DNA from: Sialis fuliginosa
Taxonomy: Eukaryota > Arthropoda > Insecta > Megaloptera > Sialidae
Direction of reading: 5' to 3'
NCBI GenBank assembly: GCA_961205875.1
Contig: OY540810.1
Coordinates: 19,158,001-19,222,000, forward strand
Length of the DNA stretch: 64,000 nucleotides
This document shows positions 8,649 through 53,144 of the stretch, piece by piece. Both the position numbers and the translations under genes were made by a program. The notes under the pieces were generated by a model. The model saw nothing but the letters and a program-made list of their open reading frames with translations, made no database searches and had not been told where the DNA came from. Within the stretch, counting starts at the first letter, position 1. Each line of letters starts with the position of its first letter.

Positions 8649-8663
8649 ATATACTGAGAAACA

Positions 8664-8727
8664 AGTCTTTGAGGCTTCCGCGGTGGTCTTGATATGGATC
8701 TTGGCTTCTGGGTGTAAGCCAAGATCC
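8664..8727 (+). mobile_element. Snap-back insertion (family S), short copy
   Basis: A 64-bp insert is flanked by a perfect 15-bp direct repeat ATATACTGAGAAACA (8649-8663 and 8728-8742). It starts AGTCTTTGAGGCTTCCGCGG, then folds back: GGATCTTGGCTT is followed by an 8-nt loop and AAGCCAAGATCC. The same left end and the same inverted right end occur in the longer copy at 43298-43529. The long target duplication suggests reverse-transcription-based insertion rather than cut-and-paste. Confidence 0.75.
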
Positions 8728-8742
8728 ATATACTGAGAAACA

Positions 8743-36894: not shown

Positions 36895-36998
36895 ATTATA
36901 ATGGTAATGATCATGTTAATATAATATCCACTGTAATGTGTAATGAAACATTTGCCTAATTTACGACAAAAACAACATACTTTACATTTAAAAACTAT

Positions 36999-37097
36999 AG
37001 GTGTACCGGAATTCCGGCCGGAATTCACGTCTAACGTCACTACTATTATATTTTAAATATAAATACATTGAGTTCCGGCCGAAATTCCGGTACACCT
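36999..37097. mobile_element. Tiny MITE, 99 bp
   Basis: AGGTGTACCGGAATTCCGG and its inverse form arms of 29 bp with two differences. The flanking 4-mer CTAT is repeated at 36995-36998 and 37098-37101. The GGCCGGAATTC-type GC-rich arms contrast with the AT-rich surroundings. Superfamily not assigned. Confidence 0.75.
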
Positions 37098-39530: not shown

Positions 39531-39575
39531 CTTGATGTGTTCGTTACAACTTGCAACATGTGACGAAACGTTAGT
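39531..39575 (+). ncRNA. Degenerate hammerhead-like motif
   Basis: TTGATGTG and, after a short stem-like stretch, GTGACGAAACGTTAG match the layout and letters of the motif at 43444-43478 (CTGAAGATG ... GTGACGAAACGTTGG). The first core box is damaged. It is probably a decayed relative. Confidence 0.3.
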
Positions 39576-41214
39576 CGAAAGGATACCTTCTACATATAAA
39601 TTTGTATACTATATATACAAAAGTTTCATAATGCTATGCATAAGATTAAAAAAATTAACATTTTTTTGTTAATTTATACCATCTTGCAGCAAACTGTGGA
39701 TATTACAAAACAATTTATTACGAATAAAATTCTTGTAAATATACATTTTTGACGTGATATTGACACACAAAAAACATCTGAGACCTGGGCAGTTTTGCCG
39801 GAATTTATGGAGTTTATTTATAAATAGCGCATCTCTAATAAATGTAAAAGGCCACGGCGAGTTAAATTTGTATATAATCCTACAGTGTCATTGACTTGAT
39901 TATGATGTTTGTTTTTAAAATGTGCTGTTTTAGTAGTTATAATAAATTAAGTGTTGTTAATAGAAATTAATTGTGTTAGTTACGTTTAATTTTTAAAACG
40001 TGTTTTTTCTTACACTTTAAACTTAAAGAAAATCAGGTTCAATAAGACAAATCTTATACCATATTATATTTATGATTACAACAACGCGCTTACTAATGGA
40101 ATTTTTTACATATTTATTCTAATTAATTATAAATGTTTGCATAAATAACATAATGCAATTTAAATCAATAAGTGTGATTGGCATCGAAAAGGTTAAAAAG
40201 TTCATTTAGTTAAAAAATAATAAAATTATACATGTATAATGTATAATATATTATTCACAGTAGAATCGGGTTAATGCCGTTTTATGAAATGGTTTTAATT
40301 TATTAGTTTTATCTATGCATTTATTTTAAACAAATTACTTTCTTATTAAAAAGAAACACTTATTGTCAGTTATAAATTAAAAAAATTCAAATAAATTTTT
40401 TTTAATATTTAAATTTAAAATTTATTGAAAGTGAAAAACAAATATTTAAAAAGTATTTTTATAATAAGTAAATAAGTGTACCTATAGATTATTATAAATA
40501 AATATAATGTGACAAGCACATCGACAATATATAGGAATTATATTATTTGTAAATAAATAGCATTACTGATATTAAATGATTATTAATACATAATGTTACG
40601 CAGTTATTCAGTATGCCATGATATTAAGATAAATTATTAATGATGCTTAAGACAAGTATACAATATAATAAATTAACTTAAGAAACGTAATGAAATGTAA
40701 AAAGCATTCATAATTCATATAGATGCTGACTTTAGCAAAGAATAGAGTTAATTATTGTTTTTCTTATCTTTTTTATACAATTGGCTAAATTAGTATTGAT
40801 TTTTTCGAATTATTTGATCTATTGTATAGGTATTATTATTATTAATAGGTATTATTATGTATGTATTTATTATTATTAAGCCTGGATTGAAACATGACAG
40901 GATCCCACTTTTTTAGCTGTCATAATTTTTTTTAATAATGACAGCATATAATAACTTTCTTGTTTCCTTTAATTTTTTATTTGTTATAATTTTAAATATT
41001 AGTAAATTACGAGATATAAAAAACTTTTTAAGAAAAAAAAACGAACTTCAAAAAAACTTTAAAAACATTGAAAAGTATACCTAATAATTATTAAAAACAG
41101 TTTTTGAAGTCGGTTTTCTTTATTAATAATTATTAGATATACTTTGCAGTATTTTTATGCTTTTTTGAAGTCTTTTTTATTTTTTATAATTCCCTTTTGA
41201 GTGGCGTATCTATG
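39576..41214. other. AT-rich DNA, nothing recognised
   Basis: No gene or element boundary was seen. Short ATTATTATT runs occur near 40830-40875. Confidence 0.5.
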
Positions 41215-43219: not shown

Positions 43220-43970
43220 TAATAATTATTGAAAATGGAAGTAATTATGAGTAATAACTTTTTTATCTTATTTTTAATCATAGAACAAGAAGTAAGCTAT
43301 ACAAGTCTTGAGGCTTCCGCGGTGATCTTGATTTGGATCTTGGCTTCTGGGTGTAAGCCGCGTCGATTTGATCGTGTTATCGGCCAACGTTTCGTCACAC
43401 ATTGCAGTGGACATCTTCAGGGCTCTTCTAAAAGTACAGAGCCCTGAAGATGTCCACTGCAATGTGTGACGAAACGTTGGCCGATAACACGACCAAATCG
43501 ACGCGGCTTACACCCAGAAGCCAAGATCCAAGAATTAAGGTTATTTTGCTAAATTTGAAGAATAAATAAATAAAATTCTGCAATTATTTCTTTTTCTTTC
43601 TCTTTTATCGATATTTCTCACAACAAAGTATATTTTTGTGTATTTTGTGTTATATAATCTTATTTAAGCGCCAAACTAAAAAACAAAAATATACTAGATA
43701 AAAATCGATGGACCAACTGACCCCATACATCCCTGATCAAAATAATTATTAGTTGATACTAGAAATCGATAACACTTATTATTAATACTAAACAAATTTT
43801 CAAATTTCATAACTGTATGACAATGGGTTCTCAAGATATTAAATAAACACTAATTTTGGGCAAAATCTTTGGAAGGCTGTAACTCCCTCACGAAGAATTT
43901 CCGGACACATGTTTATATAAAGTTTTTTGCTTAAAATAACATCCTCTATCTACTGTTATTTTTTTTACAT
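43220..43970 (+). repeat. Family D repeat, copy 2
   Basis: It matches the arms of D1 (AATCATAGAACAAGAA at 43278, AAAGTATATTTTTGTG, TTTGGAAGGCTGTAACTCC). It is split by the snap-back insertion at 43298-43529. Here there is only one arm, not the inverted pair seen at 11-12.6 kb. Confidence 0.75.
43298..43529. mobile_element. Snap-back insertion (family S), long copy
   Basis: It starts AAGTCTTGAGGCTTCCGCGG, then GGATCTTGGCTTC begins a 91-bp arm (43335-43425) matched by an inverted arm (43439-43529) with a single difference and a 13-nt loop. The right end AAGCCAAGATCC is the same as in the short copy at 8664. The flanks AAGAAGTAAG and AAGAATTAAG both align to AAGAATATAAG in the uninterrupted family D copy, showing a target duplication of about 11-12 bp. 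Each arm carries CTGAAGA ... GACGAAACG, a hammerhead-like core, as in Penelope-like elements. Confidence 0.75.
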
Positions 43971-52317: not shown

Positions 52318-52393
52318 CCAAACCGACCGCGACGCAGCTTATACCCATAGGTCAAGATCCATATCAAGATCACCGCGGAAGCTTGAAAGCTTC
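52318..52393 (-). mobile_element. Family S fragment, unfolded
   Basis: On the minus strand it reads GCTTCCGCGGTGATCTTGAT, ATGGATCTTGACC and GGGTATAAGCTGCGTCG, matching the left part of the copies at 8664 and 43298. No inverted arm follows. It abuts the right end of the piggyBac-like element. Confidence 0.65.
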
Positions 52394-53144
52394 TATAGCA
52401 TTTTGTACTTACAATGTCGAAATGATTTAAACAATAACAGTTTGTTTAGCCTTTTTATGAATAAATTGCTTTGACATTTGACTTGTTAATTTATTGTTTT
52501 ATATCTTATTCTGCAACTTTGATTCATATTTGGTTCGCTTTTAATAAATTAACAGGTATTATAGTATTAATAACGGTCTATTTTTAATAACGCGCCTTTC
52601 ACAAATTACCTAAGTAAGTTATTGTTTCTATCAGATTTTTTCAAGGTTTGTAAAGTGTGAGGTCAAATATTGAGCAGCTCTGAGTCAGTGCATGCATTTA
52701 TAAAAAGTTTTATTGTTTTGATGGTAATAATAAACAATCAATTCACTTTCTATGTAGTTATTATGTATATAAGATATTTTATTATTATTTATGTTCTCTG
52801 TTGTATTTATTTATTTTCATTCGATCCATGTTTCTTAGGATATACATATATTCCTGATATATTGTAATAATCCTACGATGAATGACTAAATTGTCATTAC
52901 AATAAAAAAAACCTCTGTATGAATATTTTTTCTTCCAAAGTATGTTAAACTTAATAAATAAACTAAGTTTTATTATTTATTTATTATATTACATTATAGA
53001 TTAAGTGAATAGATTTAAGTAGTCTAAACTATATTATATAAATACCTATATACGAGTAGGTACACTTGCAATTAATTTAGTAATACGAGAGTATTGTTAC
53101 TGAACAATATTCTCACATGCCATTATTTTTTACCATACAATTTG
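52394..53144. other. AT-rich DNA, nothing recognised
   Basis: No gene was seen. The 65-codon plus frame at 52670 is hydrophobic by base composition only. Confidence 0.5.

Follow-up and report, generated by a model that had tools for sequence, protein, structure and literature searches.

Short insertions in the genome of Sialis fuliginosa consist of two inverted copies of one leader sequence, and these copies begin at two narrow start sites, one each per inverted insertion, with either arm being the longer. The two arms carry common template letters, and the insertions also display microhomologies and target-site duplications. We propose, with a probability of about 0.72, that a single RNA is copied twice, from one start site by priming on one target strand and from the other site by priming on the opposite strand, and that the two copies then join. 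The insertions were recognized in a 64,000-nucleotide stretch of contig OY540810.1, referred to here as the window, and were then followed across the genome.

Inverted leader copies in the window

The window contains two inverted copies, A and B, a copy with a single arm, C, and relics resembling the same leader. Their features are as follows, in window coordinates:

43287..43296, plus strand: left target-site duplication of copy B, AAGAAGTAAG, read directly
43297..43435, RNA sense on the minus strand: tailed arm of copy B (alignment 43298-43435); its outer ~36 nt are the tail, and its distal start lies ~117 nt into the ORF
43438..43529, RNA sense on the plus strand: second, tail-less arm of copy B, with its proximal start ~80 nt into the ORF
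43530..43539, plus strand: right target-site duplication of copy B, AAGAATTAAG, read directly
43386..43420, minus strand: hammerhead-ribozyme core letters around the start ATG (CTGAAGATG...GAAACGTT) in the tailed arm of copy B, by motif match
43444..43478, plus strand: the same hammerhead core letters in the second arm of copy B, by motif match
8649..8663, plus strand: left target-site duplication of copy A, ATATACTGAGAAACA
8664..8720, minus strand: tailed arm of copy A; the alignment starts at 8661, within the duplication
8716..8727, plus strand: short tail-less second arm of copy A, with a 5-nt overlap (AAGCC) with the tailed arm at the junction
8728..8742, plus strand: right target-site duplication of copy A
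52330..52397, RNA sense on the plus strand: copy C, a single tailed arm, by alignment
36924..36976, plus strand: old relic resembling the element leader, by similarity (E 4e-5)
39552..39578, plus strand: short relic resembling the leader around GACGAAACGTT, a weak match (E 0.016)

Sequence comparison confirmed what a preliminary description had reported of copies A and B: they have a common left end, which is the tailed one, and the same inverted right end, which is tail-less and lies at ...AAGCCAAGATCC in both. The arms differ in length between the copies, as had been claimed, with 94 nt rather than 91 in copy B (43333-43426 and 43438-43531; 99% complementary, with a spacer of 11 nt) and 16 nt in copy A (8692-8707 and 8716-8731; 100% complementary). 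Of the latter, 12 nt lie outside the target duplication, and the outer ATAT doubles as part of it. The long target duplications also claimed for both copies were found in part as described, that of copy A being exact over 15 nt and that of copy B agreeing in 9 of 10 letters, slightly below the 11-12 nt originally given. The unfolded fragment that had been placed at 52318 is real and occupies about 52330-52399 on the minus strand; no second arm was found for it at 52330..52397. Save for such small coordinate shifts, the inserts had been described correctly. Elsewhere in the window, at 37000-37096, an inverted repeat (GGTGTACCGGAATTCCGGCCGGAATTC ... GGCCGAAATTCCGGTACACC) resembles a small fold-back DNA element.

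Read in the RNA sense, which is the minus strand of copy B's left arm and the plus strand of its right arm, the element runs ...GAAGAGCCCTGAAG-ATG-TCCACTGCAATGTGTGACGAAACGTTGG..., and in copy B the frame is open from the ATG through to the left end. Relative to this ATG, copy B has its right end near +80 and its left end near +112 to +118. The minimal-hammerhead core, CTGANGA...GAAACGTH, matches once in each arm of copy B; these are the only 2 matches in the window, against 0.00 expected in shuffles. An Rfam search of the window returned no family at the gathering threshold, and a permissive Rfam search of 331 bases gave 19 matches with no hammerhead among them, mostly microRNA precursors below the cut-off that match weakly because of the hairpin shape. 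As single strands, the arms do not fold unusually (z -0.69 and -0.98).

Two start sites and one tail per pair

The 15-mer at the left end, GAGGCTTCCGCGGTG, occurs exactly 1,674 times (838 + 836) in the 392 Mb and 20 contigs of the genome searched, and the same 15-mer read backwards occurs 0 times; the left end is therefore not a product of chance. Twenty random 10-kb stretches held matches at three loci only, and we therefore sampled by pattern, taking the first 100 left-end places in order along contig C1 (0.30-15.14 Mb). These represent 99 distinct loci, with one place left out as a tandem repeat of its neighbour (L049). Because the sample requires an intact 15-nt tail stretch, old copies are under-represented in it. 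The first 28 fold-back loci (L001-L028), a biased set picked by similarity to copy B, are excluded from all counts. Second arms were called at an alignment score of at least 11, a value reached by 0.1% of shuffled controls; by this measure an inverted second arm is present at 79 of the 99 loci, and none was detected at the other 20. Target duplications could be placed at 60 of 99 loci, compared with 113 of 9,702 mismatched pairings. A second arm and a placed duplication occur together in 52 copies, which we call bounded, and 7 of the 20 single-arm copies also have a placed duplication. On the inner side of the 99 loci (about 450 nt), we found no second unit adjoining the leader. The copies collected in this way support the earlier view that these inserts belong to one element family.

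All 79 inverted copies have left starts at +107 to +117 after the ATG, positions that are read from genomic ends rather than from an assay, and in a reference that ends at +117, so that starts beyond it cannot show. By single alignments, the right starts fall at +76 to +90 in 66 of the 79 inverted copies and in 50 of the 52 bounded ones; with internal gaps bridged, 70 of 79 lie at the proximal site. Bridging revealed a further segment beyond a gap in 8 of 79 tailed arms and changed the start or end of 9 of 79 second arms. The 9 second arms (of 79) that lie off the proximal site after bridging comprise one distal start (L059, which has two tails) and eight starts elsewhere. Variable arms with a nearly fixed, tail-less right end, as foreseen in the preliminary description, are thus a property of the family (66/79; 70/79 when bridged), and so are long target duplications, which measure 9-18 nt in the 52 bounded copies, with a median of 13 and 81% A+T. 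A link to Penelope-like elements (PLEs) had also been suggested and is supported by three of their hallmarks: a tail of 30-40 bp at one end only of inverted copies, a start within the ORF at about 110-118 nt after the ATG (here +107 to +117, by genomic ends) and variable target duplications in AT-rich DNA.

At their far ends, 17 of 99 left arms and 12 of 79 right arms stop exactly at one common letter, 23 nt before the ATG, which we infer to be the usual 5' end of the RNA. Three of the 99 copies (L065, L087 and L147) run at least 28 nt past this point into a sequence common to them, about AACAGAGGCAAGGGTTCGCACTCGTTAA; longer RNAs therefore exist, and this sequence is probably their upstream leader. 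In four other tailed arms that extend to the RNA end (at L126, L135, L143 and L144), several letters of the arm's own inverted end follow before the join to the target or to the second arm, and these could reflect a small local fold-back or a palindromic RNA end.

Some loci have a more complex structure. L096 and L102 carry inserts of 240 and 145 nt between their arms, with leader pieces in both orientations, for which nested insertion and several template switches are possible readings. At L049 (C1:304088-304829), the insertion and its duplication, AATCCAGTTTTACAA, stand three times head to tail with a period of 187 nt; here the insertion has seeded a small tandem array through its own duplications. 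Beside L071, in which the second arm and flank are repeated, C1:1485573-1486155 holds four arm matches on one strand at a spacing of 187-190 nt, which we read as a probable second array of this kind derived from an insertion.

The arm pattern, defined without the tail, occurs 2,023 times genome-wide; together with adjoining tail letters it occurs 813 times. From the pattern without the tail we took the first 100 arm places, chosen regardless of tail, and defined pairs as convergent places within 300 nt. In 17 of 17 convergent pairs a tail was detected on exactly one arm, and the number of divergent pairs was 0; if sites were chosen independently, the probability of 17/17 would be 7.6e-6 at most. 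Eleven of these pairs are also in the first sample, one (L157, with a partial tail) was read separately, and five are known from pattern positions only. Among the 79 inverted copies, 70 end at the proximal site opposite a tail and one has two tails. Outside the tail-filtered sample 8 loci were read: four single arms from the proximal site, including one (L153) with a possible short second arm below the cut-off, two single tailed arms, and two inverted copies (L154 and L157) that start within the tail at about +96/+97, possibly at a third start site.

Origin of the two arms

Both arms bear the marks of a common source. At three diagnostic positions they carry the same letter in 49 of 52, 46 of 49 and 49 of 56 copies, where random pairing would give 28.7, 34.9 and 41.6, respectively; such agreement is expected alike from a single RNA molecule and from two RNAs that stem from one source copy. 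The 52 junctions divide into 24 without and 28 with extra letters, and the insert-free junctions overlap by at least 4 nt in 11 of 24 cases, compared with 1% of random junctions. Target and RNA are also identical over a mean of 2.6 nt per end just outside the start, against 1.0 expected; this value comes from 50 and 43 of the 52 copies at the two ends (excluding 2 and 9 copies with extra letters there), and filtering by duplication score may have raised it.

We propose a model in which a PLE complex would cut both strands of an AT-rich target, and the 3' end of each cut strand would prime reverse transcription within the same RNA. At one end, synthesis would begin at the distal start, about 112-117 nt after the ATG, giving an arm with a tail; at the other, it would begin at the proximal start, about 79-85 nt after the ATG, giving an arm with none. 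Both copies would extend toward the 5' end of the RNA, usually ~23 nt before the ATG, or stop early. The 3' ends of the two cDNAs would then be joined head to head via short matching letters or filler, and the staggered cut would be filled in to yield the duplication of 9-18 nt. That the enzyme would be a PLE protein is suggested by the tail, by where the two starts lie and by the hammerhead letters. With less certainty, the arm lengths, the diagnostic letters and the one-tail pairing suggest that a single RNA molecule served both ends; the 5' end of the RNA and the sequence of steps would likewise be our reconstruction from the copies. Several observations count against the model: the 9 of 79 off-site second arms, the 20 of 99 single arms, the 28 of 52 junctions with extra letters, the starts inside the tail at 2 of 8 further loci, the 3 of 99 copies that run past the usual RNA end, the lack of a hammerhead match in Rfam, a non-significant trend to more unequal arms in older copies, a driving enzyme that was not found, and the correlation between arm lengths.

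The preliminary description had proposed that the copying enzyme switched to its own strand, such that a single copy strand folds and copies itself, with differing switch points producing differing arm lengths. Bridged arm lengths do correlate (for the 52 bounded copies, rho 0.44 with p 0.001; for all 79, rho 0.42 with p 0.0001; unbridged, rho 0.17 and 0.22), and this correlation, which favours snap-back, would also fit one RNA with a common 5' break, or local hairpins. Microhomology at the junctions, the natural 5-bp/8-nt hairpin at the junction of copy A, and the few copies that append several letters from their own end in inverted form favour it as well, and a study of rotifer elements argues for self-priming from palindromes at inverted junctions (PMC3846280). 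A snapped-back strand cannot, however, exceed its own template, and the tail-less arm reaches more than 10 nt beyond that supposed template in 16 of 52 bridged, bounded copies; the tailed arm reaches further in 21, and the two end within 10 nt of each other in 15. The corresponding counts for all 79 bridged copies are 22, 28 and 29, and without bridging the tail-less and tailed arms reach further in 19 and 23 of 52 copies and in 27 and 32 of 79, with little change under different alignment scoring. These longer tail-less arms therefore rule against a general snap-back. A switch to its own strand further predicts that the second arm runs through the tail; in 70 of 79 copies it instead has its own narrow start at a separate site, ~33 nt further in than that of the tailed arm. 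The computed spacer, moreover, is shorter than 3 nt in 4 of 52 copies, below the minimum for a hairpin loop. Collecting copies by their left end did reveal the fixed right end and variable arms that had been put forward as a check of the idea, but this pattern does not discriminate, because two copies begun at two sites would leave the same pattern. Snap-back is refuted as the general mechanism; it could still hold for some of them, and individual ones such as A may be compatible with it, but we give it little chance of accounting for the family. Nor is self-priming of the rotifer type, as set out in PMC3846280, the general mechanism here.

Alternatively, the source element could have supplied two RNA molecules, one for each arm. 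A lizard PLE protein is predicted to be a dimer (PMC11167929), which would suit this reading, as would the fact that either arm can be the longer. We nonetheless consider it unlikely: the strict pairing of distal with proximal starts (17/17) is unexpected if each end chooses freely, and the diagnostic letters common to both arms and the correlated arm lengths also speak against it. Long inverted repeats are unstable, and variable arms might also arise if long perfect palindromes inserted first and the host later deleted their centres unevenly. This instability, the extra letters at 28 of 52 junctions, the internal deletions in some arms (8 of 79 tailed arms have a further segment beyond a gap) and a slight rise of inequality with divergence (rho 0.22, p 0.12, a tendency toward unequal arms in older copies that is not significant) are in keeping with such decay. 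Arm length is unrelated to divergence, however (median divergence 3.9%; rho 0.06, p 0.69 for total arm length and rho -0.02, p 0.88 for the shorter arm), and short or unequal arms occur even in the least diverged copies, for example 53/58, 62/75, 37/63 and 138/51. Decay also leaves one tail per pair unexplained, and we regard it as highly improbable. A fold-back, MITE-like DNA transposon with decayed terminal inverted repeats would likewise place inverted repeats between target duplications, but its chances are close to nil: the ends differ by a fixed tail, the duplications vary from 9 to 18 nt in length, arm lengths differ from copy to copy, and single-arm copies exist. A terminal-inverted-repeat DNA transposon or MITE proper was rejected, as the inserts lack identical ends and a constant duplication length.

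Related elements and the reach of the model

The inserts are PLE-type products and not an autonomous PLE. An ORF with reverse transcriptase and GIY-YIG endonuclease is absent from the copies read, and among the best 150 of 7,094 candidate matches to the first 39 codons of the leader, the longest open frame was 215 aa and there was no full-length element. Phage records, viral contigs and bacterial and archaeal contigs contained no relatives. Other PLE ORFs are present in the genome. L149 is an AT-rich, PLE-type GIY-YIG endonuclease fragment, with no leader in the 601 bases read; when it was used as a query, the best 150 of 732 candidate relatives were scored, many of them in 896-aa frames. The multi-copy clusters among these 150 (n=30) are head to head in 22 cases (all minus-strand copies left, plus-strand copies right), the reverse in 2, in one orientation in 4 and mixed in 2. 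Tandem arrays of PLE ORFs that face each other head to head stand at C10:1718-41345, C7:61755-90213, C3:36751825-36772381, C1:22117719-22138910 and other places, many of 896 aa, with a period of about 3.56-3.6 kb and differing unit numbers per arm, and several near contig ends. In topology, the head-to-head arrays match the short scars. None of the leads to the driving element held up: besides L149, the 896-aa family has in one unit (L158) a leader whose score does not exceed that of shuffled sequence, and the GIY-YIG match at L148 (C3:8307700-8308300) resembles a host gene that we take to be SLX1.

L1 twin priming, or 5' inversion, produces neighbouring, inverted parts of one RNA. It was rejected as an explanation here: it needs cDNAs of different, neighbouring RNA parts, whereas both arms of the present insertions repeat the same part, from two narrow starts. 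What L1 insertion (PMC2837659) has in common with the proposed reaction is priming by both target strands on one RNA and joining of the cDNAs by microhomology.

A 2024 biochemical paper on the lizard element PAc, from the Penelope/Poseidon clade, reports two internal sites at which its enzyme begins reverse transcription, with starts most frequent at 111-118 nt into the ORF; the stretch between the two is the optional tail of genomic copies (PMC11167929). There, the ATG is preceded by hammerhead residues C3 and G8, and the purified enzyme cuts and extends both target strands (PMC11167929). The present family resembles PAc, as portrayed in that text, in its hammerhead core letters just before the ATG, its AT-rich targets, its two internal starts with the tail between them and, under our model, the extension of both target strands; judged by sequence, the distal start at about 112-117 nt appears to agree closely with the 111-118 nt of PAc. 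In the same text, PAc uses the same start sites on top and bottom strands, whereas the pairs examined here use one each, and its starts are reported to be non-homologous to the cut DNA, whereas here 2-3 target letters match the RNA on average (PMC11167929). The present family further differs in that no ORF-bearing copy of it was found.

The Penelope elements of Adineta vaga (PMC3846280) are similar: their pLTRs are inverted, one of these bears a 31-bp tail, palindromes lie at the inverted junction, and the duplications measure 8-10 bp in the quoted cases. They are mostly ORF-bearing and of very low copy number, in contrast to the 1,674 left ends found here and the lack of an ORF in the copies read, and the self-priming explanation given for them there misfits a good part of the arm lengths in the present family. 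Non-LTR retrozymes are likewise short and non-autonomous, with type I hammerhead letters and a proposed dependence on PLEs (PMC7761336). They differ in having circular RNAs and tandem ribozymes, whereas the present family consists of leader pairs in inverted orientation; direct tandems were seen here at L049 and L071 only, and they repeat the insertion plus flank.

These insertions bear on how PLEs synthesize their second strand and on why they carry inverted repeats with a tail on one side only; later steps of insertion are described in the 2024 paper as still to be validated (PMC11167929). The open literature, in our limited reading, contains the tail, the inverted pLTRs, self-priming and internal initiation; it does not state the one-each use of two start sites, and we found in it no arm-length test against snap-back, though either could have been published before. 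The family, whose members are short and simple and whose exact left ends number 1,674 in one genome, is a natural experiment on these questions, and it speaks against self-priming as a general mechanism. A tentative extension, to which we give somewhat less than even odds, is that PLE insertion is intrinsically two-ended, and that the same reaction, acting on multi-unit RNA or on circular RNA made by the hammerhead, gives rise to full-length PLEs. If true, the two-ended reaction would also account for the head-to-head arrangement of the 896-aa PLE ORFs in arrays with unequal units per arm. The rule that emerges can be checked: one tail per pair, two arms of one template, and either arm the longer. 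Should other genomes follow it, PLE enzymes would have to be modelled and tested accordingly.
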